Origin: a virus
DNA length: 32,717 nt
IMG/VR virus record: IMGVR_UViG_3300031775_000017
Coordinates: 1 to 32,717 of that record
Reading direction: 5' to 3' (one strand)
Made by a program: the position numbers and the translations under genes. A model generated the notes under the pieces. It was not told the origin of the DNA. It saw only the letters and a list, made by a program, of their open reading frames with translations, and did no database searches. Of this stretch, positions 4,246 through 23,324 are shown in pieces. Every line of letters starts with the position of its first letter. Positions within the stretch are counted from its first letter, which is position 1.

Positions 4246-6390
4246 ATGGCTTTAACCAAAATATCAACCGATACTATAGATCTTAGCGCGGATACAAATG
4301 CGTTAAAGATGCCTAAAGGTACTACAGCTGAAAGACAAATAGAATATTTAGTTGTTGCTGGTGGTGGCGGAGGTGCTGGTAATTCTTCTGGTGGCGGAGG
4401 TGGTGGTGCCGGTGGTTTACTAAGTGGAACTACAGATATGATTGCCACTACAAATTTAACTATAACTGTAGGAACTGGAGGGGCAGGTACAATTGGTGAA
4501 GGAAGTACCGATGTTGGAGGTAATGGGACTGATTCTGTTTTTGACAATATAACAGCTACAGGAGGTGGGGGTGCTGGAAATACAGGTGCTGGAAATAGTG
4601 CTAATGGTGGATCTGGCGGTGGTGCTTCAGGAGGAACTGCTGTTACCCCTGGAAATGGTATTCCCCCACAAGGAAATAATGGAGGTACAGGTTCTGATCC
4701 AAGTGATATTGGTGGTGGTGGCGGAGGCGCCGGAGGAGTTGGTCAACCAGGTGGTAGTTTAGGATCTATTCCATCAAGTGGAACATTTACTGGAACTGAT
4801 GGTCAAGGTGGCGCTGCTTTATCTAATAGTATAACTGGAACCGCAGTATTATATGCTGGTGGAGGTGGTGGTGGTGTTTGTGATTTTGTTTATAATGTTG
4901 GTACTCCTGCTACTACTGGTCTTGGAGGTGCTGGAGTTGCTGGAACTGGAGGAAATGGTGGTCAAAGTGATGGGTCTACTACAGCTGCTGTTAATGGGGG
5001 TAATGGAACTGCTAACACTGGAGGTGGTGGTGGTGGTGGTTCAAGAAGTGCTAGTGGATCATGTAATGGAGGTGATGGAGGTTCTGGTATAGTTATTTTA
5101 AGATATGCATCTAAGTATACTTTAGTTGCCAGTGCAGGATTAACAACTGGAGTTTTAAATGGAACTGTTGGAGATGATAAATATACAACTTTTACTGCAG
5201 GAACGGGAACAATTAGTGGCCTTAATTTGGATATTGCTATAGGTACTATGAGAGAAAATACTACAACCGGTAACATGGAAATATATACTGGCGCTAAAGG
5301 TTGGAGAGCTTTACAACAAACTGGGCAAGATGCAGGTGTGGTAGCATCAAATGGTTTTGGTACAGCATTATATACTGGAAATGGAGGAGCAGATAATATA
5401 AATTTAAATTTTCAACCCGATTTAATTTGGATAAAAGGTAGAGATACAAACGGAAAATTTAATGCTGTATATGATTCTGTAAGAGGTGCTACAAATATGA
5501 TTTCAACTAACTCAACAGATTATGGTAGTTGGAATCCTTATGGAAGTGTAACGCCTACTGCTAGCGGTTTTGAAATAGGTTCAGCTTCTGCTGGTGATGT
5601 AAATGCTAGTGGAGAAGAATATGTTTCGTGGTCATGGAAAGCTGGTGGAAATTCTAATACTTTTAATATAGATGGTGTAGGTTATGCAACAGCTGCTGCA
5701 GCAGGAATGAATGCAGGTAGTATTTCACCTAATGCATGTTCAGTTAGCACAGAGTATGGGTTTTCTATTACTAAGTATGACTCTGGAATTTGTGGTACAT
5801 CAAATCCTCCCTGTTTTAATTGGTCTCATGGTTTAAATCAAGAACCTGATTTTGTAACAAATAAAATGCTTAATTATAGTTATGGATGGGATAGTATATT
5901 TAAACCAGCAGGTTATAGTGGAGGTTCAAATACCGGTGGTTGGCAATATCTTCAATTAAATACCACCGCAGCAATGGCTTCTAGTCCTCATTACTCCGCA
6001 GATAGTACATTAATATATGAAACTATGAGTTCTGGTGCTAGTTATCCTTTAGTTACATATGCTTGGCATTCAGTTCCAGGTTATTCACTAATAGGAAGTT
6101 ATACTGGAACAGGTAGTGCTACTGACTCACCGAAAATTTATACAGGCTTTGAACCGGCATGGTTAATGACAAAACCGGTTTCTACAACTGGATGGTGGTA
6201 TATATTTGATAATAAAAGAAGTACGAACAATCCAAGAGATATAATATTAGGTGCTAATTCATCTGATTCAGAATATACTAGTTCTAATTATGATGTTAAT
6301 TTTTATAACGATGGTTTTCAATATAGAAATAGTACTATATGTTGTAATGATGCTGGGGTTGAATATTTATTCATGTGTTTTGCATCTTAA
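4246..6390 (+). CDS. Glycine-rich adhesin/fibre protein with a C-terminal marine-phage module
   Basis: A 714-residue protein in three parts. Residues 1-30 (MALTKISTDTIDL...) form an N-terminal segment shared in pattern with the next two genes. Residues about 31-290 are glycine-rich, with many GGGGG and GGAGG blocks. They open with an IEYLVVAGGGG strand and close with IVILRYAS, the usual borders of the phage glycine-rich domain, which may fold as a polyglycine-II helix bundle. A short linker at 333-355 (GTMRENTTTGNMEIYTG) has relatives in the two following proteins. Residues about 364-714 have W-rich motifs (PDLIWIKGR, VPGYSLIGSYTGTG, GFEPAWLMTKP, WYIFDNKRS) that I recognise from a domain common on marine phage spikes, of unknown fold to me. 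A receptor-binding role is inferred. Confidence 0.75.
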   Translation: MALTKISTDTIDLSADTNALKMPKGTTAERQIEYLVVAGGGGGAGNSSGGGGGGAGGLLSGTTDMIATTNLTITVGTGGAGTIGEGSTDVGGNGTDSVFDNITATGGGGAGNTGAGNSANGGSGGGASGGTAVTPGNGIPPQGNNGGTGSDPSDIGGGGGGAGGVGQPGGSLGSIPSSGTFTGTDGQGGAALSNSITGTAVLYAGGGGGGVCDFVYNVGTPATTGLGGAGVAGTGGNGGQSDGSTTAAVNGGNGTANTGGGGGGGSRSASGSCNGGDGGSGIVILRYASKYTLVASAGLTTGVLNGTVGDDKYTTFTAGTGTISGLNLDIAIGTMRENTTTGNMEIYTGAKGWRALQQTGQDAGVVASNGFGTALYTGNGGADNINLNFQPDLIWIKGRDTNGKFNAVYDSVRGATNMISTNSTDYGSWNPYGSVTPTASGFEIGSASAGDVNASGEEYVSWSWKAGGNSNTFNIDGVGYATAAAAGMNAGSISPNACSVSTEYGFSITKYDSGICGTSNPPCFNWSHGLNQEPDFVTNKMLNYSYGWDSIFKPAGYSGGSNTGGWQYLQLNTTAAMASSPHYSADSTLIYETMSSGASYPLVTYAWHSVPGYSLIGSYTGTGSATDSPKIYTGFEPAWLMTKPVSTTGWWYIFDNKRSTNNPRDIILGANSSDSEYTSSNYDVNFYNDGFQYRNSTICCNDAGVEYLFMCFAS

Positions 6391-6400
6391 ATAATAAAAT

Positions 6401-8950
6401 ATGGCGATAACAAAAGTAATTAACGATCTTGCCGATTTAAATCAATTAGGTTCTACCAACGCTTTAAAAGGATGTGCTGGTACAACTGCTCAGCAACCAG
6501 TAGTTTCTTCATCTATTGAATATGTAATCGTTGGAGGAGGCGGTGGAGGTGGTACTAATGGTTCAGCTACCGGTGATGGTCTTGGTGGTGGTGGTGCTGG
6601 GGGTTATGTTACGGGTACAACTACAGTTTATCATGGAACACCTACTGTTCTTACCGTAGGAGATGGTGGTAACGGTGGTACAACAACTAATGGTTATGAT
6701 GGAATAAACGGTGATGATTCCGGGTTTAATGGTATTAGAGCTATCGGTGGCGGTGGCGGTGGTGCTGGAACAGGGTTTGGTATAGATGGAGGTTCTGGTG
6801 GTGGAGGTGGAAGAAATGGCGGTGCTGCAGGAAGTTCTTTAAATAGTCAAGGAAATGCTGGTGGAACTGGCGGAACTGGAAGTACATATTATAATTCTAC
6901 TGGTGCTGGTGGTGGTGGTAGTGGTGAACCATTCTTAGACACTAATGGAACGGGTGGTAACGGAGCAAATAGTCCCTCAGGTAATGGTGGATCTGGAGGT
7001 TCTGGTACAAATATAAATGGATTTATAGATTATACTAATGCAACCACAGCAGGTATAGGGGATATATCGGGAACTGATGTATATATTTCTGGTGGTGGCG
7101 GTGGTGGTGCTTATAGTGGTACTAAAGGAACTGGAGGAGATGGCGGTGGCGGTGCTGGTGGTCAATCAGGAACTACTGCTACAAGTGGAAGTGATAATAC
7201 TGGTGGTGGCGGTGGTGGAGATGGTAATGCTGAATCGCTTGGTGGAGGTGGAGGATCTGGTGTTGTAATTTTACAATATGATAATAACGAAGTAACTGGA
7301 TATACAATTACAGGGTCATTAGTTGGAGGTGTAAATACCGCGGATAATTCTGCTGTCGTAGATTTTCCCGCAGGAGCAGGATGCCAAGCTTTATATCAAT
7401 TTGAGAATAATACAAATGATTCAAGTAGTAATAGCTATAATCCAACTTCTGAGGCTAATACAAGTTTTCCAACATCATCTCCTGCTCCAAAATTTGGTAC
7501 TTATTCTTTATCTCTTAATGGTTCAACTACTTATGTTAATGGCATTCCCTCAGGATTAACGACTAAAATAAGGACAGCTGGACAATTTAGTATTTCTGTC
7601 TGGATAAATCCAAAAACTAGACCATCGGGAAGTGGATATTCTGGAGGAGATAACTTTATTAAGCTTCTAGATGATATTTATCTATCAATTTTTCTTGATA
7701 AAGAGTTAACATTAAATTATTCGGTAATTCCTAGTCCAGGCGTATATATTGAATCTCCACAAACTACGTCTGTAAGAAGAATTAATTTAAATGAATGGTC
7801 TCATATATGTCTTACAGGAAGTGCTACTAATGGTATAAAGTTTTATATAAACGGACAACAAGAAACATATAATCCTTCTTGGCCTGGAACATTTATTACT
7901 TATACTGATAGTAACTATAAAACTAACGGTCTTACGGCTAATTATCCTAGTTTGCCAGGAAATCCTACTAAAGTATTAGATGGTAATTTAGATAATCTTA
8001 GAGTTTATGATAATGAACTAACAGCTTCACAAGTGTTAGAACTTACTAACACTAATTTAACAACTAAATTTGTAGACAGTCCAACTGTTGGTACTGATAC
8101 ATTAGTATTTAAAGGAGGAACAGGAAATATATCCTTTGAAAATAGTGGACCTCCAGGAGGAGAAATAGGTATGTTAAGGTACAATAGTACTTTAGGTCAA
8201 ATGGAACATTTTAATTCCGGTGGTTGGAAAGATTTTACTGATTGCACAACTTCTGTATGTAATTATCCTACTACAGCTCGATGTTTATACACATTTGACG
8301 GAAATATTATAGATTCGTGTGGAAATACAACACCTGATCTTATTCAAAATATTTATTATAATTCCACAGGAAAATTTGATCAACGAGGATGGACTGCACT
8401 TGGAACATCCAGTTCTTTAGGTTATAGTAAACTTGGTTGGTCTTCCGGATTAGGAGTTAATTATAATACTTCAGATTTTAGTATTTCTTTATGGTTAAAA
8501 CAAGATTCTTATGCAAGTTATAGTGCGTGTAGTAGTAATCCTTTATGTTATGGATATATATGGTCAGGATGGTCAAATTCATATTGGACATTAGCTACAG
8601 ATCACCAACTCGCAGGTAATACAATAGCATGGAAAAGTTGGGGACCTGGAGCAGGACAAATTCAAACAGCTGAAAGTGGAATAGTAGATTTAAATACGTG
8701 GTATCATATTGTAGCTACAAGAAGTACAACAGATGGTATCCAATTATGGTTAAATAATCAACTAGTTGCTAGTGTAAGTGGATCATTTACCGCAGGAACA
8801 GCGTCGGTTTATGATATGATGGGAGGGTATGGAGATACAGGTTATACTAGACAAGGATTGAATGGGTCGATTAGTCAATTTAGACTTTTTGAATCTGTAT
8901 TAACTTCAACTCAGATATCACAATTATATAATGAAATTTCATGTCCTTAA
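6401..8950 (+). CDS. Glycine-rich protein with two LamG/concanavalin-like domains
   Basis: An 849-residue modular protein. Residues 1-30 (MAITKVINDLADL...) match the N-terminal pattern of its neighbours. Residues about 39-292 are a glycine-rich domain bordered by IEYVIVGGGG and GVVILQYD, as in the previous gene. Residues about 328-548 and 628-846 look like LamG-type jelly rolls: each starts with a (C/L)YxFxxN strand, has a central FSISxWx strand and a WYHI/WSHI strand, and ends near TxxQ(V/I)xxL. Between them at about 603-627 sits the linker EIGMLRYNSTLGQMEHFNSG, followed by a CNYPT element. LamG folds commonly bind glycans, so adhesion to the host surface is likely. It starts 10 bases after the previous stop. 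Confidence 0.77.
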   Translation: MAITKVINDLADLNQLGSTNALKGCAGTTAQQPVVSSSIEYVIVGGGGGGGTNGSATGDGLGGGGAGGYVTGTTTVYHGTPTVLTVGDGGNGGTTTNGYDGINGDDSGFNGIRAIGGGGGGAGTGFGIDGGSGGGGGRNGGAAGSSLNSQGNAGGTGGTGSTYYNSTGAGGGGSGEPFLDTNGTGGNGANSPSGNGGSGGSGTNINGFIDYTNATTAGIGDISGTDVYISGGGGGGAYSGTKGTGGDGGGGAGGQSGTTATSGSDNTGGGGGGDGNAESLGGGGGSGVVILQYDNNEVTGYTITGSLVGGVNTADNSAVVDFPAGAGCQALYQFENNTNDSSSNSYNPTSEANTSFPTSSPAPKFGTYSLSLNGSTTYVNGIPSGLTTKIRTAGQFSISVWINPKTRPSGSGYSGGDNFIKLLDDIYLSIFLDKELTLNYSVIPSPGVYIESPQTTSVRRINLNEWSHICLTGSATNGIKFYINGQQETYNPSWPGTFITYTDSNYKTNGLTANYPSLPGNPTKVLDGNLDNLRVYDNELTASQVLELTNTNLTTKFVDSPTVGTDTLVFKGGTGNISFENSGPPGGEIGMLRYNSTLGQMEHFNSGGWKDFTDCTTSVCNYPTTARCLYTFDGNIIDSCGNTTPDLIQNIYYNSTGKFDQRGWTALGTSSSLGYSKLGWSSGLGVNYNTSDFSISLWLKQDSYASYSACSSNPLCYGYIWSGWSNSYWTLATDHQLAGNTIAWKSWGPGAGQIQTAESGIVDLNTWYHIVATRSTTDGIQLWLNNQLVASVSGSFTAGTASVYDMMGGYGDTGYTRQGLNGSISQFRLFESVLTSTQISQLYNEISCP

Positions 8951-8960
8951 TTAATATAAT

Positions 8961-10499
8961 ATGTCACTAACAAAGATAACAACACCAGAACTTTTAGATT
9001 TTCCAAATGACACTACAACAAGTATTAATACATCTGGTACTGTAATACCTACAGGCTATATAGCTTCATGTACATTTCCGGATACTGCTAGTAATGTAGC
9101 TTTATATACTATGTTTCTTTCGGGTAATGATTCATGTAGTGGTTCATTAAATTTAACAAATAATAATGGGGTACCATTTGTTGCTAATTCGCCTTTTGGT
9201 GGTGTATCCTTTTCTGCTGATTTTGATCCCGCAGCATCTCCTAGTGAATATTTAAGTATTACATCTGGTTTAGGATCCGTACAAGACAGAACTAGATCTT
9301 TATGGATTTACTTAGACGCTATACCTAGTGTTTTTGCAACAGTTTTATATATTGGTTATGCTGGACTTCCTAATCAAAACTATGAAGTGTTAAGCGTTAG
9401 TTCTGCTACTACAGGACACGTAAGATTTCAATCAAGATATAGTACTAGTACTGATGCTGCTATAGAAAGTTTAAGCGCATTAAGTACAAGTACTTGGTAT
9501 CATGTTGCTTGGGTTTATCAAGGTGCTTCAATTTATTTATATATAGATGGAGTTTTACAAGGTTCTACAACAAACACTGTAACAGATACTAGTAGTTATC
9601 CCGCTTTTTTTGGGGCTTGGCACGACGGAGATACTCAATTTGATGGACAAATAGCTCAAGCGAGGTTTTATAATCAAGCTTTAACTAGCGATCAGATAGT
9701 TGATTTATATAATGAAACTAAAACTATAGATTATAGGCCTACAACTAGTTTAAATGCAGGTGAATTTAGATATAATGAACAATTAGGGTATGTAGAATAC
9801 TATGATGGTAGTATTTGGCGCCAAATAGCAGATGAATATATAACTGGTCAACCTACTACTTGTATATGTAACTATCCTACTCAAGGAGTTTCCTTGTATG
9901 AATTTCAAGATAATGCTAATGATGTTTGCGGATTTTATCCTTTAACAGAAGTTGGAAGTCCTTCATATGTAACTGGTAAATTTGGTAAAGCAATACAGTT
10001 TAATGGAACTTCTCAAGGCGTTACAAGTACATCTGCAGTAATTCCTAATCCAGCAACAACTATTTCCTTGTGGTATAATGGAAACGGTACAGCTTTAACT
10101 GAATTTTATATTATTGGAGCAGGTGTTGGTGGTGGAAGTTATGGGCTTGATATACATTATTATGATTCAGGTTTTTGGGCTGGGGTGGTAGATGGAGGTA
10201 GTTTTGAAGGAGTTGGTGGTGGAGTAACTACAGTTAATACAAGTACTTGGTATCATCTGGCTTTAACATGGGATGGATCAACAACAACAAATTCTCTGAA
10301 ACTTTATTTAAATGGTGCTTTAGAAACTAATATTACTCCTACTGTTGCAGCTTCTAGTCTTACTTATAGTTCTTTTGGAATTGGAAAAACCGCAACAGCA
10401 ACTTATGCCCCCGGAATAGTAGATCAAGTAAGAATATTTGATAGTGTTCTTACGCCTACGCAAATAACAGAATTATATAATGAAGTAATATGTAATTAA
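8961..10499 (+). CDS. Double LamG-domain tail/adhesin protein
   Basis: A 512-residue relative of the previous gene without the glycine-rich block. The N-terminus MSLTKITTPELLDF is the third variant of the MxxTKI segment. LamG-like domain one spans about residues 46-250 (NVALYTMF, TWYHVAWVYQG, LYIDGVLQGS, LTSDQIVDLYNE). Then come the linker GEFRYNEQLGYVEYYDGSIW and the CNYPTQG element. LamG-like domain two spans about 311-510 (SLYEFQDN, TWYHLALTWDG, LYLNGALETN, LTPTQITELYNE). The two halves look like an internal duplication. It is the last gene of the fibre array and is followed by the first sizeable non-coding gap. Glycan binding is inferred from the fold family, and no catalytic residues are apparent. 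Confidence 0.77.
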   Translation: MSLTKITTPELLDFPNDTTTSINTSGTVIPTGYIASCTFPDTASNVALYTMFLSGNDSCSGSLNLTNNNGVPFVANSPFGGVSFSADFDPAASPSEYLSITSGLGSVQDRTRSLWIYLDAIPSVFATVLYIGYAGLPNQNYEVLSVSSATTGHVRFQSRYSTSTDAAIESLSALSTSTWYHVAWVYQGASIYLYIDGVLQGSTTNTVTDTSSYPAFFGAWHDGDTQFDGQIAQARFYNQALTSDQIVDLYNETKTIDYRPTTSLNAGEFRYNEQLGYVEYYDGSIWRQIADEYITGQPTTCICNYPTQGVSLYEFQDNANDVCGFYPLTEVGSPSYVTGKFGKAIQFNGTSQGVTSTSAVIPNPATTISLWYNGNGTALTEFYIIGAGVGGGSYGLDIHYYDSGFWAGVVDGGSFEGVGGGVTTVNTSTWYHLALTWDGSTTTNSLKLYLNGALETNITPTVAASSLTYSSFGIGKTATATYAPGIVDQVRIFDSVLTPTQITELYNEVICN

Positions 10500-10576: not shown

Positions 10577-10864
10577 ATGACACTATTTTACCAGACTCAT
10601 TCGTGGAGTAGTCAACCACAAATTTCAGAAAAAACCCAAAACCTTTGGAAGCATATTGCTCAAAAGAAAAATTGGCGGATAACCCAATTACCTAATGGTT
10701 TTTATCAAACTGAATACCAAGATCCCGAAGCTCAAGAGTGGATGGATGTAACCCGTAGAGAAACACTTGAAGGTGCTGAAGAAGCTGTAATAGCTTCTGT
10801 AAAGCATTACGAGAAAAAAATAGAGTTCTTAAACGGTCCAAAAGTCGTTAAGACCTTTAAATAA
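10577..10864 (+). CDS. Small conserved phage protein of unknown function
   Basis: A 95-residue protein, MTLFYQTHSWSSQPQISEKT... I recall very similar short proteins from uncultured marine phage genomes but know of no function. The sequence is Trp-rich at the front (SWSSQ, LWKHI, KKNWRI) and has a central beta-like stretch (ITQLPNGFYQTEYQ). A C-terminal helix (LEGAEEAVIASVKHYEKKIEF) could mediate dimerisation. There is no membrane segment and no metal site. It lies 27 bases before groEL and is the first gene after the gap, so it probably heads the chaperonin transcript. The ATG follows an A/C-rich leader with no Shine-Dalgarno motif. Confidence 0.7.
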   Translation: MTLFYQTHSWSSQPQISEKTQNLWKHIAQKKNWRITQLPNGFYQTEYQDPEAQEWMDVTRRETLEGAEEAVIASVKHYEKKIEFLNGPKVVKTFK

Positions 10865-10891: not shown

Positions 10892-12442
10892 ATGTCAGAC
10901 TTAATAGTCAAAAATCTTAATTTTGGGCAAGAAGCCCAAAGTCAAGTATTTAAAGGAATCGATAAACTCACACAAGCTGTTAGCTCTACTTTAGGGGCTA
11001 GTGGCAAGTGTGTTTTACTAGAAGATGATAAAGGAACTCCTGTTATTACTAAAGATGGTGTTACTGTTGCTAATTCAATTGTTTTATTAGATCCTGTAGA
11101 AAATATGGGGGCTACTCTTTTAAAAGAAGCAGCAAGAAAAACAGTTTCCGAAGCAGGTGATGGCACTACAACAGCAACAATACTTGCTCATGCTATATTA
11201 GAAGAAGCTAAAGATATTAATATTAATTCAAGAGAATTAAAAGAAGGTATTCAAAGTGCTGTTAAAAAAGTAATTAAATATTTAGAAAAAATAGCTATTC
11301 CAGTAAAAGGAGATATGATTGATCAAATAGCTACAATTTCAACTAATAATGATGCTAAGCTAGGAAAAATTATCGGGGATGCATTTAGATCTGTTGGTGA
11401 AACAGGCGTAGTAATGATGGAACATTCTTCCTTACCGGAAACAGAAGTTGAATTAGTTGACGGTGTACAATATGAAAAAGGATTGACAAATCCGCATTTT
11501 ATTACTAATAAAGCAAAAAAGACCGCAGAACTAGAAAACCCCGCAGTATTACTTATAGAATCTCCAGTAGAAAATATAAGACAAATTCAATCAGTATTAG
11601 AGTATGTTATAAAGAATAATACACCTTTACTTATAATAGCAGATGTAGAAGCTCCTGTTATGGCTACACTTGCTATGAACAAAACAAAGGGTAATATAAA
11701 AATAAATATTATAAATGCCCCTACATTTGGAGTTAACAAAAGAGAAACTTTAGATGATTTAGCAATGCTTACCGGGGCTACTGTCATAAATGAAGATCTT
11801 GGTGATGATATGGATTTAATACAACCTGAATTATTAGGTAGTTGTTTAAAATCTATAACTGATGAAAAAGATACGATTTTACAAGTTGAAGAGCAGAGTG
11901 AAACGGTTTTAAATACAATAGAAACTGTTAAAGAAGAATTAGCCAATAAACCTAATCCAGCTCATTTAATAAGACTTGAGAAAAGATTAGCTAGATTATC
12001 AGCAAAAATTGCAATAGTAAAAGTTGGGGCAAATTCTGATATAGAACTAAAAGAAAAATCGGATAGAATAGAAGATGCTATTTGTGCGACAAAAGCCGCT
12101 ATAAAAGAAGGAATTGTTCCAGGAGGTGGAATAGCGTTATTAAACGCGGCAACTAATATAAAAGAAAATAATAAAGCAGAAGAAGTATTAACAAAAGCAA
12201 TTTTATCACCGTTTACAACTATTTTAGATAATGCGGGTATTAAAGTTAAACTTCCTACTGAAACAGGAATTGGGATAAATGTAGTAAGCGGTAAAGAAGT
12301 AAATATGCAAAAGGCTGGTATTATTGATCCATTACTGGTTACTAAAAGTGCCCTTATAAACGCCGCTTCAGTAGCTACTACAATATTGTCGACAGATTGT
12401 GTAATCAATAATTTAAGAATTGATGAAAGCAATAGGAAATAA
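10892..12442 (+). CDS. groEL: Phage-encoded GroEL-type chaperonin (60 kDa family)
   Basis: A 516-residue group I chaperonin that folds proteins in an ATP-driven ring in the cytoplasm. Seen directly: TLG at 33-35, ITKDGVTVA at 52-60 (D55), GDGTTTA at 89-95 (D90), the apical IRQ...PLLIIADVE region at 229-253, RIEDAICATKAA at 392-403 (D395), PGGGIAL at 410-416 and IIDP at 477-480 (D479). These match the ATP-site residues D52, D87, D398 and D495 of the E. coli protein, so the ATPase should work. Differences: the GGM-repeat C-terminal tail is absent, LGPKGR is LGASGK, and the hinge pair G374-G375 reads A371-K372. Neighbours are phage genes on both sides, and groES follows and overlaps. Likely clients are virion proteins (inference). 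Confidence 0.95.
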   Translation: MSDLIVKNLNFGQEAQSQVFKGIDKLTQAVSSTLGASGKCVLLEDDKGTPVITKDGVTVANSIVLLDPVENMGATLLKEAARKTVSEAGDGTTTATILAHAILEEAKDININSRELKEGIQSAVKKVIKYLEKIAIPVKGDMIDQIATISTNNDAKLGKIIGDAFRSVGETGVVMMEHSSLPETEVELVDGVQYEKGLTNPHFITNKAKKTAELENPAVLLIESPVENIRQIQSVLEYVIKNNTPLLIIADVEAPVMATLAMNKTKGNIKINIINAPTFGVNKRETLDDLAMLTGATVINEDLGDDMDLIQPELLGSCLKSITDEKDTILQVEEQSETVLNTIETVKEELANKPNPAHLIRLEKRLARLSAKIAIVKVGANSDIELKEKSDRIEDAICATKAAIKEGIVPGGGIALLNAATNIKENNKAEEVLTKAILSPFTTILDNAGIKVKLPTETGIGINVVSGKEVNMQKAGIIDPLLVTKSALINAASVATTILSTDCVINNLRIDESNRK

Positions 12443-12683
12443 TATTATTATAAAACCTGAAAAAGTATCTACACAAAAAACTAAAGGTGGATTGCTTATA
12501 ATAGAAAAAGATAGAGAAGATATTAGATATCAACAAGGAACGATTGTTTCAGTAAGTAATGAAATAAAATTTCTTAAAGAAAAAGACGTAATATTTTACG
12601 ATAAGCATGCTGGGCATGGAATTGAATTTAATAAAGAAAAATTTACTATAATTAAAATACAAGATGTTGTTGTGGTTTTATGA
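12423..12683 (+). CDS. groES: Phage GroES-type co-chaperonin
   Basis: An 86-residue Cpn10 homologue, a little shorter than the usual 95-97. The front MKAIGNNIIIKPEKV matches the IRPLxDRVIVK strand. Residues about 16-27 (STQKTKGGLLII) form the mobile loop, with LLI in the place of the IVL tripeptide that docks on GroEL. The middle has GTIVSVSN (like GEVLAVG) and KEKDVIFYDKHAG (like VGDIVIF), and the end KIQDVVVVL matches the DILAIVE strand. I chose the ATG at 12423 over an upstream in-frame TTG at 12420. The start overlaps the end of groEL by 20 bases, so translation is probably coupled. The groEL-groES order is the reverse of the usual bacterial groES-groEL operon. Confidence 0.88.
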   Translation: MKAIGNNIIIKPEKVSTQKTKGGLLIIEKDREDIRYQQGTIVSVSNEIKFLKEKDVIFYDKHAGHGIEFNKEKFTIIKIQDVVVVL

Positions 12684-13132
12684 GAAAATTAAACGCAGCA
12701 GATATAAAAAAATTAAATTTATTAAAACATTATCGATTAATAAGAAAGTGGGCTTGTAGAAATAATAATTTAAATGATGCCGATTTAGAATTACTTATTT
12801 ATTTTGATTGTATGGAGTTATTTACTAAGCAAGACTTTAAAGTCGGTACTTATGCATATAGTTGGGACAACAGACGCTGGAACAAAATGATAAAAAACAA
12901 CTGGATTGTGGTTTGGAGAAATCGAAACAGAACAAGTCAAAAGTATAATATCTATAAAGTTTCTTTCAAGTGTAAACAACTAATTGCTAGAATGTACCGA
13001 ATTATGCTAGGAGAAGAAGATGTTCCCACAAGTAAAAGAAGAAATTCAATTATGCATGGAAAAACTTATACAGATAAAGTTTTAATAACAGCTATTAAAA
13101 ATGTTAACAAAGATAAAAATAGATATGAATAA
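12680..13132 (+). CDS. Small winged-helix-like protein
   Basis: A 150-residue basic protein that overlaps groES by ATGA at 12680-12683. Helices LLKHYRLIRKWACRNNNL and DADLELLIYFDCM are followed by FTKQDFKV, a helix (SWDNRRWNKMIKNNW), then a beta-wing stretch (IVVWRNRNRTSQKYNIYKVS) and another helix. This is the order expected of a MarR-type winged helix-turn-helix, so a DNA-binding or late-gene regulatory role is plausible. The tail (SKRRNSIMHGKTYTDK) is basic. I recall similar proteins in uncultured marine phages without a tested function. It has no membrane segment. Co-translation with the chaperonins suggests expression at the same time. Confidence 0.6.
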   Translation: MRKLNAADIKKLNLLKHYRLIRKWACRNNNLNDADLELLIYFDCMELFTKQDFKVGTYAYSWDNRRWNKMIKNNWIVVWRNRNRTSQKYNIYKVSFKCKQLIARMYRIMLGEEDVPTSKRRNSIMHGKTYTDKVLITAIKNVNKDKNRYE

Positions 13133-17666: not shown

Positions 17667-17886
17667 CATTATAAGAAAAATCAGTGTTGGACCTGATTAT
17701 AAAAATGATGCTATGCACTATGCCGTAGGGCAACAAGTGTATGGTGGTCATACTATTTCTCATATTTTAAATAATGAAGAAGAACAATCTTATAATATTT
17801 TTATTAAAAAAGATAATGAAGTTTTGCCTTGGAAAAAATTTAATTCTAATATGGCTATTTCAGTAGAATATGATTTAGAATATTAA
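17659..17886 (+). CDS. Small conserved phage protein (GPDYKNDAMHY type), GTG start
   Basis: A 75-residue protein read from GTG at 17659 (written MSNIIRKISVGPDYKNDAMH). The sequences ISVGPDYKNDAMHYAVGQ, IFIKKDNEVLPWKKFN and NMAISVEYDLEY form a conserved pattern I remember from numerous marine and crAss-like phage genomes, always short and of unknown function. It has no membrane segment or cysteine. It overlaps both neighbours (8 bases at the front, TAATG at 17884-17888), so it is probably made by coupled translation. The GTG is preferred because the conserved region begins immediately after it. Confidence 0.72.
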   Translation: MSNIIRKISVGPDYKNDAMHYAVGQQVYGGHTISHILNNEEEQSYNIFIKKDNEVLPWKKFNSNMAISVEYDLEY

Positions 17887-18491
17887 TGAATAGTATTTAT
17901 CAATTTATTATAAAACCTATTGGTGAAAGATATAAAAATAAAATAAACATAGAAGGAAAAGAACTTTTAGTAAATACTAGTATATCTAATCATAAATTTA
18001 TAAATAGAGAAGCTGAAGTAATAAGTATTCCACTTAATTATAAAGGTAATATAATAAAAGGAGATAAAGTTATAGTTCATCATAATTTATTTAGAAGATA
18101 TTATAATGTAAAAGGTAAATCAGTAAATAGTAGTAAGTATTTTAAAGATGAATTATATTTTGCTATACCTTCTCAAATATATTTATATAATAAAAATAAT
18201 GAATGGTGCACACATGAAAATTTTTGTTTTGTTAAACCAATTATAAAAAATAGTAAGTTTAAGAAAGAAAAATTACAAAAGCATAAAGGAATACTAAAAT
18301 TTGGTAATAATACCTTAGAGGCACTTCAAATTACTCCTGGGGATGTAGTAGGGTTTAAACCCAATAGAGAGTTTGAGTTTATTATAAATAATGAACTTTT
18401 ATATTGTATGGAATCTAATGATATTGTAATTAAATATGAACACGAAACAAACCAAGAAGAGTATAATCCAAGCTGGGCAAAAAGCTGTTGA
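17886..18491 (+). CDS. Conserved phage protein, possibly two GroES-like domains in tandem
   Basis: A 201-residue protein starting in the TAATG overlap. Residues about 7-118 run from FIIKPIGERYKNKI through AEVISIPLNYKGNIIKGDKV to CFVKPI, and residues about 132-184 contain GILKFGN, ITPGDVVGFKPNREFEFIIN and LYCMESNDIVIKYE. Both halves echo the Cpn10 strand order (I-K-P-x-x-x-R; a-E-V-I-S; G-D-x-V; and in the second half x-D-I-V). I recall close relatives in uncultured marine phages, placed before terminase, without a tested role. The last 18 codons overlap the next gene by 56 bases. A co-chaperonin-like or assembly role is inferred from fold resemblance and the groEL/groES pair 5 kb upstream. 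Confidence 0.55.
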   Translation: MNSIYQFIIKPIGERYKNKINIEGKELLVNTSISNHKFINREAEVISIPLNYKGNIIKGDKVIVHHNLFRRYYNVKGKSVNSSKYFKDELYFAIPSQIYLYNKNNEWCTHENFCFVKPIIKNSKFKKEKLQKHKGILKFGNNTLEALQITPGDVVGFKPNREFEFIINNELLYCMESNDIVIKYEHETNQEEYNPSWAKSC

Positions 18492-18708
18492 AGAATTAAT
18501 TAAAGTAGCTAAAGAAAAAATAGTTGATTCAGAAGATGATGTTTCAGCTGATAGATTAAAAAATGCTGCAGCTACAAAAAAATTAGCTATTTTTGATGCT
18601 TTTGAGATTTTAACACGTATAGAAGAGGAAGAAAATATGTTAAAAGAAATAAAAGATGAAAACCGCGGAAATAATTTTAAAGGTTTTGCAGAAGGTAGAT
18701 CAAAATGA
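18436..18708 (+). CDS. Small helical protein before terL, candidate small terminase subunit
   Basis: A 90-residue, almost fully helical protein: MNTKQTKKSIIQAGQKAVEE, LIKVAKEKIVDSEDD, NAAATKKLAIFDAFEILTRI, EEEENMLKEIKDENRG. Position directly upstream of the large terminase (ATGA overlap at 18705-18708), small size and helical oligomer-like character fit a small terminase subunit, but no clear DNA-binding helix-turn-helix is visible. It could instead be another small head-assembly factor. It overlaps the 3' end of the previous gene by 56 bases. The ATG at 18436 is kept because the sequence right after it looks conserved. Confidence 0.5.
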   Translation: MNTKQTKKSIIQAGQKAVEELIKVAKEKIVDSEDDVSADRLKNAAATKKLAIFDAFEILTRIEEEENMLKEIKDENRGNNFKGFAEGRSK

Positions 18709-20930: not shown

Positions 20931-23324
20931 ATGGTTAAGATTAACTACAATAGTGCTTTCCCAGATCAGGTGGTACCTGAAGAAGAGAAAAAATCTAAAG
21001 AATATGGTTTACAAGTAGCACAAGCCATTGAAGGAGAGTGGTTTAAAAATTCAAGTGGCAGAAATAGATTTATTAATAATTTTCAAAATTTTAATAGATT
21101 AAGATTATATGCTCGTGGAGAACAACCTGTTCAAAAATACAAAGATGAATTAGCTATAAATGGTGATTTATCATATTTAAATTTAGATTGGAAACCCGTA
21201 CCTATTCTTTCTAAATTTGTAGATATAGTAGTTAATGGTATGACTGATAAAGGTTATAAAGTTAACTCCTTTGCAACAGACCCTTTTGCAATGAAACAAA
21301 GAACACATTACGCATCAACTGCATTAAGAGATATTCAAAGTAAAGCTGAAATAGATGCCTTAGCTCAAGCCACTGGTCGTAATTTTTATTCTTCTCCAAA
21401 TCCACAGTCATTACCAGACAACCCAGAGGAATTAGATCTTTATATGCAATTAGATTATAAACAGAGTGTAGAAATTGCAGAAGAAGAGGTTATAAATAAT
21501 GTATTAGATTTTAATAAATACGAAGAAACAAAAAAAAGAATAGCCTACGATTTAACTGTTTTAGGTATTGGATGTGTAAAAACTAATTTTAATTTAGCAG
21601 AAGGAATTACAGTAGATTATGTAGATCCAGCTAATATAGTTTATTCATATACAGATGATCCAAACTTTGAAGATATTTATTATGTAGGGGAAGTAAAAAA
21701 TATGTCATTATCCGAAGTTAAAAGACAGTTTCCTTACTTAACAGATAGTGATTTAGAAGAAATACAAAAATATCCAGGAAGAAATTCATATGTAAATAAC
21801 ACTTGGTGGGGACAAGAAGCACAAGATCAAGTTCAAGTTTTGTTTTTTGAATATAAAACATATCAAAATCAAGTATTTAAAATAAAAGAAACTGATCAAG
21901 GATTACAAAAAACTTTAGAAAAACCCGATACTTTCAATCCTCCTGAAAATGATAATTTTGAAAGAGTAAGTAGAGCAATAGAAGTATTATATAGTGGGGC
22001 TAAAGTTTTAGGATTGGGAGGAAATTTATTGCAATGGGAATTAAGTGCTAATATGACTAGGCCGTTTAGCGATACTACAAAAGTTAATATGAATTATGCA
22101 ATAAGTTCTCCTAGAATGTATCAAGGAAGAATTGAATCTATTGTAAGTAAGTGTGTTGGATTTGCTGATATGATACAATTAACACATTTAAAATTACAAC
22201 AAGTACTTGCTAGATTAGTACCAGATGGAGTTTATTTAGATGTAGATGGTTTAGCAGAAGTAGATCTTGGAAATGGAACTAATTATAATCCAGCTGAAGC
22301 ATTAAACATGTATTTTCAAACTGGTAGTATAGTAGGAAGATCTTTAACACAAGATGGGGAATTAAACAGAGGTAAAGTACCTGTACAAGAGCTACAAAGT
22401 TCATCTGGAATTTCTAAGATACAATCGATGATCCAAACATATCAATATTATCTACAAATGATTAGAGATGTTACGGGACTAAACGAAGCTAGAGATGGTA
22501 GCACTCCGGCAAAAGACTCTTTGGTAGGTCTTCAAAAACTTGCTGCCGCTAATTCAAATACAGCAACAAAACACGTTCTTCAGTCTCTTATGTATCTAAC
22601 TGTTCGTGCGTGTGAGAATATAGCATTAAGAGTATCTGATATGTTGCAGTTTCCTTTAACAAAGAATAGTTTATTAAACAGCATTAACACATTTAATGTT
22701 AACACTTTAAAGGAACTAGAACATTTGCACTTGCATGATTTTGGTATATTTTTAGAATTAGAACCAGAAGAAGAAGAAAAAGCTGAATTAGAAAAAACAA
22801 TTCAAATAGCTTTACAAGCAGGTAATATAGGATTAGAAGATGCAATAGATATAAGAGAAATTCAAAACATCAAACTTGCTAATCAACTTTTAAAAAATAG
22901 ACAAAAGAAAAAACAAGAAGCAGAAAGAGCTGCTCAACTAGAGAATATTGAAGCACAAGCCGCTGCAAATGCAGAGGCCGCTGAAAAGGCAGCTTTATCT
23001 GACGTACAAAAACAACAAGCAATTGCACAAACTGAAGTACAAATAGAACAAGCAAAGTCGCAATTTGAAATTGAAAGGATGGAGCAAGAGGCAATTATAA
23101 AGAAACAATTAATGGCAGAAGAATTTAATTATGATATGCAATTAGCTCAAATTCAGGCTCAATCACAACAACAAAAAGAAGCTGCTATAGAAGATCGTAA
23201 AGATAAACGAATAAAAATACAAGGTACACAACAAAGTGAACTTATAGATCAACGTCAAAATGATTTATTACCTAAAGATTTTGAATCTACTGGTAGTGAT
23301 AGTTTAGTGGGTTTTGGATTATAA
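20931..23324 (+). CDS. Portal protein, crAss-like type
   Basis: A 797-residue portal, the dodecameric ring through which DNA enters and leaves the head. The region WKPVPILSKFVDIVVNGMTD at residues 87-106 and the following KGYKVNSFATDP are motifs I associate with crAss-like portals. YDLTVLGIGCVKTNFN, VDYVDPANIVYSYTDDP and RDVTGLNEARDGS are further portal-like elements. From about residue 650 to 770 the sequence is an Ala/Gln/Glu/Lys-rich coiled coil (EIERMEQEAIIKKQLMAEEF), a common portal C-terminal tail reaching into the capsid. It begins on the base after the terL stop (TAGATG), so the two genes are surely co-transcribed. The length suits the crAss-like group. Confidence 0.9.
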   Translation: MVKINYNSAFPDQVVPEEEKKSKEYGLQVAQAIEGEWFKNSSGRNRFINNFQNFNRLRLYARGEQPVQKYKDELAINGDLSYLNLDWKPVPILSKFVDIVVNGMTDKGYKVNSFATDPFAMKQRTHYASTALRDIQSKAEIDALAQATGRNFYSSPNPQSLPDNPEELDLYMQLDYKQSVEIAEEEVINNVLDFNKYEETKKRIAYDLTVLGIGCVKTNFNLAEGITVDYVDPANIVYSYTDDPNFEDIYYVGEVKNMSLSEVKRQFPYLTDSDLEEIQKYPGRNSYVNNTWWGQEAQDQVQVLFFEYKTYQNQVFKIKETDQGLQKTLEKPDTFNPPENDNFERVSRAIEVLYSGAKVLGLGGNLLQWELSANMTRPFSDTTKVNMNYAISSPRMYQGRIESIVSKCVGFADMIQLTHLKLQQVLARLVPDGVYLDVDGLAEVDLGNGTNYNPAEALNMYFQTGSIVGRSLTQDGELNRGKVPVQELQSSSGISKIQSMIQTYQYYLQMIRDVTGLNEARDGSTPAKDSLVGLQKLAAANSNTATKHVLQSLMYLTVRACENIALRVSDMLQFPLTKNSLLNSINTFNVNTLKELEHLHLHDFGIFLELEPEEEEKAELEKTIQIALQAGNIGLEDAIDIREIQNIKLANQLLKNRQKKKQEAERAAQLENIEAQAAANAEAAEKAALSDVQKQQAIAQTEVQIEQAKSQFEIERMEQEAIIKKQLMAEEFNYDMQLAQIQAQSQQQKEAAIEDRKDKRIKIQGTQQSELIDQRQNDLLPKDFESTGSDSLVGFGL

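Follow-up and report, generated by a model that had tools for sequence, protein, structure and literature searches.

A groEL-groES pair and a tandem GroES-like gene preceding the terminase in a probable phage of Bacteroidota

The locus and its groEL-groES pair

We analysed a stretch of 32,717 bases (hereafter the window) of the virus record IMGVR_UViG_3300031775_000017. The window is probably a fragment, since its last ORF runs past the window end, and, judging by the host and tail of cultured relatives, it probably derives from a short-tailed phage of Bacteroidota. A groEL-groES pair lies between fibre-like genes upstream and terminase and portal genes downstream, as a preliminary description of this DNA had placed it. 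Both genes of that two-gene account are real, but it was incomplete, having missed a third chaperonin-type gene at 17886-18491. The main features are:

4246-10499: three fibre-like genes, with glycine-rich, DUF7483, laminin-G-type and pentraxin-like domains (Pfam)
10892-12442, plus strand: groEL, 516 aa, with an intact ATP site, an apical groove that differs from that of E. coli and no GGM-type tail
12423-12442, plus strand: groEL/groES overlap, 20 bases
12423-12683, plus strand: groES, 86 aa counted from the ATG, with the mobile-loop motif retained and a roof hairpin about nine residues shorter
17886-18491, plus strand: tandem GroES-like gene, 201 aa, phrog_13932, immediately before the terminase
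17886-18203, plus strand: N-terminal GroES-like half (residues 1-106), less strongly supported than the C-terminal half and mainly by predicted fold
18204-18440, plus strand: C-terminal GroES-like half (about residues 107-185), with a shortened mobile loop
18705-20930, plus strand: terminase large subunit, phrog_6681, the constant neighbour of the tandem gene
20931-23324, plus strand: portal protein, phrog_6547

The groES ATG had been described as lying 20 bases inside groEL, and the coordinates agree; a TTG stands one codon ahead of it. Among 16 related IMG/VR loci the spacing between both genes was -20 in nine, -17 in six and -4 in one. The pair is flanked by ORFs of 95 aa (10577-10864) and 150 aa (12680-13132), the latter overlapping the groES stop and matching phrog_17028, to which PHROGs assigns no function; one relative (L073) has ORFs of 95 and 148 aa at places that correspond by position and length. 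A 90-aa ORF (18436-18708), which shares bases with the 3' end of the tandem gene and bridges the gap to the terminase, matched nothing in PHROGs or Pfam.

The window GroEL matched Pfam Cpn60_TCP1 (PF00118) with 203.3 bits (cut-off 34.3), covering profile positions 1-487 of 490, as well as phrog_5725 (449.5 bits), and is 38% identical to E. coli GroEL. The aspartates D55, D90, D395 and D479, which the preliminary description listed as kept at the ATP site, correspond to E. coli D52, D87, D398 and D495 and do not vary among the 14 sequences aligned. Over the 19 ATP-region positions checked, these four and the glycine, threonine and lysine positions are identical in the 14 sequences; P33 is replaced by A in the window, and 479-481 is variable. 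The full-length Cpn60 domain and the ATP-site residues are those of a group I chaperonin (GroEL/Cpn60). The apical residues Y199, Y203, L234, V263 and V264 of E. coli GroEL, which we take to be substrate- and GroES-binding positions, are replaced by L, H, Q, A and M in 10/10 family members; these common changes suggest a GroEL ring tuned to its own lid. The inter-ring positions 452, 461, 463 and 464 are not retained and the segment is shortened, which makes a single ring, rather than a seven-fold double ring, possible.

The GroES protein carries a Cpn10 domain (PF00166, 45.5 bits, cut-off 21.1) and was placed in the expected family by PHROGs as well. The claim that a mobile-loop LLI is kept holds in the alignment, where GGLLI faces GGIVL of E. 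coli GroES and thus provides a hydrophobic tripeptide opposite IVL, presumably the mobile-loop motif of the E. coli protein. Its roof hairpin falls about nine residues below the E. coli GroES length. According to the available portion of PMC6318259, T4 gp31, which serves the capsid protein gp23, has no roof loops either, so that a short roof is no bar to co-chaperonin status; the two would be alike as phage lids with reduced roofs, although T4, in the same portion of that source, relies on host GroEL whereas the window phage carries its own.

Between the window and a related locus (L024), dN/dS was ~0.08 for groEL, ~0.18 for groES and ~0.21 for the tandem gene, and two other close pairs gave 0.07 to 0.09 for the genes compared. 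All three thus look like working genes and not chance ORFs, and, as judged from these ratios, groEL and groES are under purifying selection. Together with the Pfam and PHROGs families and the complete ATP site of GroEL, this bears out the preliminary claim that a complete groEL and groES are both present.

Distribution and origin of the genes

Relatives of the tandem protein were found in 62 IMG/VR loci and 77 phage records (68 Flavobacterium, 7 Cellulophaga, Panino and ctfjg026). A terminase match follows the tandem gene in 62/62 loci, with an unusual start offset in four; several loci are near-copies, so the 62 do not represent 62 independent cases. All 16 loci with at least 7.5 kb upstream of the tandem gene carry groEL followed by groES, groEL being split across two frames in one of them (L040). 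The remaining tandem loci comprise five with contig-cut remnants of the pair and 41 with less than 4.4 kb upstream, which show neither gene. A search of 30 whole records (27 IMG/VR contigs of 10 kb or more and three named records) recovered groEL in 19, with a Cpn10 match above cut-off just downstream in 19/19. The tandem profile matched five of the 15 named records searched, and 5/5 also had groEL and groES. An assembly artefact was rejected, since named phages and 16 viral loci, several of the latter near-copies, show the same arrangement. A groEL match was found in 274 phage records; the phages collection also contained two records of ~501 kb (H32 and H124) titled as Salmonella enterica contigs, with bacterial groEL matches.

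The preliminary description had presented a phage carrying both genes as uncommon. This is not supported: both are annotated in elemoB, ctfjg026, immuto, phi38:1 and Calle_2, and the accessible part of the Panino paper (PMC11590407) reports GroEL and GroES. The phage pair is thus already known, and so is the groEL-first order (elemoB, Panino and ctfjg026). The Flavobacterium elemovirus elemoB_14-3B (NC_062741) resembles the window in having groEL then groES, an order taken from its annotation, and a 180-aa 'co-chaperonin GroES' of the tandem family adjoining the terminase; unlike in the window, its head genes are on one strand and its groEL and groES on the other, and its GroEL is 37% identical to that of the window. 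Maribacter phage Panino (PP540027) and ctfjg026 (MW202828) likewise have groEL ahead of groES and a tandem-family gene near the terminase, but in Panino a 44-aa ORF separates groEL from groES; their GroELs are 39% and 37% identical to the window protein, respectively. The tandem gene directly precedes the annotated terminase in elemoB and Panino, while in ctfjg026 a small ORF lies in between. The Pervagoviridae phages Cellulophaga phi38:1 and Calle_2 share groEL, Cpn10 and a tandem-family gene with the window but have Cpn10 before groEL with one ORF between them; in phi38:1, an 879-aa hypothetical protein occupies the terminase position after the tandem gene and is probably the terminase. The part of PMC8776804 available lists cpn10 as a core protein of Pervagoviridae. 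In Flavobacterium phage immuto, groEL and groES are annotated but groES comes first. Phage EL gp146 is also a phage-encoded GroEL but, unlike that of the window, sits on a very long tree branch with no groES annotated within 2.5 kb.

A different double GroES occurs in Flavobacterium phage MaF61 (PQ858689, positions 1912-2472). It has two Cpn10 stretches (E 3.2e-16), lies directly upstream of a very divergent groEL and looks unrelated to the tandem family; the tandem profile did not match it, and no other phage relative was found at E 1e-3.

Among the bacterial GroEL matches listed, the closest has 42% identity to the window protein and Flavobacteriaceae are among the top ones. The gene order had been described as the reverse of the bacterial one, and indeed in the best 80 bacterial loci listed groES lies upstream in 75, downstream in none, and was not found in five, one of which has less than 600 bases upstream. 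The preliminary description had proposed phylogeny as a check, and a GroEL tree of 71 rows, including 45 of those best 80 bacterial loci and E. coli, does not show the result named there as adverse, a position of the window protein inside a host genus. In this tree, which has many long branches, a stop-containing row (L094) and an unsettled bootstrap, the ten family GroELs form one long-stemmed clade (100/99) that excludes every bacterial row used. By comparison, the GroELs of DAC16 and LR756501 fall among Bacteroidales and those of three Vibrio phages beside E. coli. A clade of its own outside the sampled bacteria, with a best identity of 42% among the matches listed, indicates that this is not a recent host gene. 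As a side observation, the GroEL of a Candidatus Rokubacteria contig (OMJU01000080) groups with Polaribacter inside Flavobacteriaceae, which suggests that this contig is mis-binned.

The tandem GroES-like protein

The protein encoded before the terminase matched the PHROGs family phrog_13932, 'co-chaperonin GroES', with 91.8 bits, and some records use the same label. Its AlphaFold2 model (50 sequences, pLDDT 78.7, pTM 0.76) had as best PDB match, across both halves, the Chlamydomonas chloroplast Cpn20 (7ekq_R), the sole Foldseek match under 0.001 (E 6.6e-4; by VIA, Z 9.1 and rmsd 4.4 over 152 aligned residues). The second BFVD match of the model was a 200-aa 'Chaperonin cpn10' of Cellulophaga phage phi18:3.

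The C-terminal half superposes on GroES by VIA with Z 8.0 and rmsd 2.1 over 78 residues. Against a profile of 75 bacterial GroES and the E. coli protein, the profile of this half scored P 6e-8 (probability 95%), whereas the best of six reversed or shuffled controls reached P 0.0043; this signal appeared only with five more proteins, the narrow tandem alignment being weak (hhalign). The N-terminal half, folded alone (36 sequences, pLDDT 77.7), gave co-chaperonins in all 15 top VIA rows at Z 4.8-6.6 (next row 4.5), although Z values under 8 may reflect a common arrangement, and no significant Foldseek match (best E 0.26). Its profile aligned with GroES across 28 columns at P 3e-4 and 39% probability, the best of the N-half controls reaching P 0.064. 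Comparison of the two halves as profiles was not significant with narrow or broader alignments, so that an internal duplication is not supported by sequence. The single-domain profile phrog_3188 matched the N-terminal half of the elemoB tandem protein weakly (E 3e-4) and the C-terminal half of those of Calle_2 and phi38:1 at E about 1e-6.

The Pfam search with the window tandem protein gave no match. Among 50 tandem-family members, 26 matched Pfam Cpn10 only when E values up to 1 were allowed (the lowest being 0.0022), a threshold at which other unrelated families also appeared with up to nine members each. The tandem-family profile returned four weak unrelated matches and no co-chaperonin among PDB sequences; 7ekq_R, present in that set, was not returned at E up to 1, and thus no sequence kinship with Cpn20 was detected. 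Taken together, the model, the GroES profile alignments and the phrog_3188 matches support a double-domain GroES, the N-terminal half being the less certain part. As in Cpn20, there would be two tandem GroES-like domains, the first recognized mainly by its predicted fold, but a mobile loop is not kept in both: that of the C-terminal half is shortened in the window family, so that at most one loop per tandem protein may be usable. We therefore class the protein as Cpn20-like in architecture, not as Cpn20.

We found no paper describing a double GroES architecture in phages in the open-access literature of one library. The parts available of PMC3542282 and PMC5780408 describe the double-domain co-chaperonin as specific to the plant lineage or to chloroplasts, and the main text of PMC7077304, in the part available, contains no chaperonin term.

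Possible roles in late protein folding

The reading we prefer, to which we give about an even chance, is that the phage folds its late proteins with a machine of its own, comprising a GroES with a reduced roof and, tied to head assembly, a Cpn20-like double lid. The phage would make its own group I machine, in which GroEL, from its fold signature and ATP site, may form the ATP-driven ring and the overlapping groES would provide a lid whose roof, like that of T4 gp31, is reduced relative to E. coli GroES; a smaller roof might give a more open or roomier cage. The tandem protein, with its GroES-like halves, would be a further lid subunit. Combined with the small GroES, it may make up a set of seven GroES domains in the manner of chloroplast Cpn10 and Cpn20, or alternatively it may form its own lid for particular clients. 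We infer that these clients would most likely be late head or fibre proteins, since the putative double-lid gene precedes terminase and portal. Counting for the double lid are the Cpn20 match of the model, the C-half profile signal, the co-chaperonins in the top VIA rows of the N-half, the pair in 16/16 loci, the terminase in 62/62 and the pair in 5/5 named tandem records; counting against it are the kilobases separating pair and tandem gene, their opposite strands in elemoB, the weak N-half evidence, the shortened C-half loop and the lack of any co-chaperonin in the tandem-profile search of PDB sequences.

A rival is a different division of labour, in which GroEL and GroES are a working pair and the tandem protein, built on a reused GroES fold, is an accessory of packaging or head assembly that makes no contact with GroEL. 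We consider this a real possibility, though we would not bet on it. It fits the terminase found behind the tandem gene in every one of the 62 loci, its place before TerL in elemoB and Panino, and the location of groEL and groES elsewhere (on the opposite strand in elemoB and near DNA polymerase genes in phi38:1), as well as the shortened C-half loop and the divergence from Pfam Cpn10 seen in the weak matches of 26/50 members. It sits less easily with the five named tandem records, all of which also have groEL and groES, and with MaF61, where another double GroES directly precedes groEL. A more general service, with phage GroEL mainly standing in for a host chaperonin in short supply, blocked or under surveillance by host defence, and having no special client, seems improbable to us: the position of the groEL/groES module relative to the head genes does differ among relatives (elemoB, phi38:1), but the linkage of a GroES-type gene to the terminase points to assembly. 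That the pair is a recently acquired host groE operon, perhaps keeping the host alive under heat or stress, we give almost no credence. Flavobacteriaceae do figure among the top bacterial matches listed, yet recent host capture was rejected because identity is at most 42% among the matches listed, the family forms its own long-stemmed clade, and the gene order is opposite to that of 75 of the best 80 bacterial loci listed.

The preferred folding machine has a close parallel in chloroplast and apicoplast Cpn60, Cpn10 and Cpn20, where single- and double-domain lid-type proteins also stand beside one ring kind. A bolder and rather doubtful version is that Bacteroidota phages independently reached the plastid solution, with one ring and single- and double-domain lids, the double lid being locked to terminase and portal and reserved for head assembly; lids of mixed composition, such as one GroES with three double subunits (seven domains), would then tune the cage for viral proteins. 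If a widespread phage double lid with its own ring and single lid is true, elemoviruses and Callevirus would offer cultured systems for mixed-lid tests, and these would let one ask what a phage gains from having its own cage.
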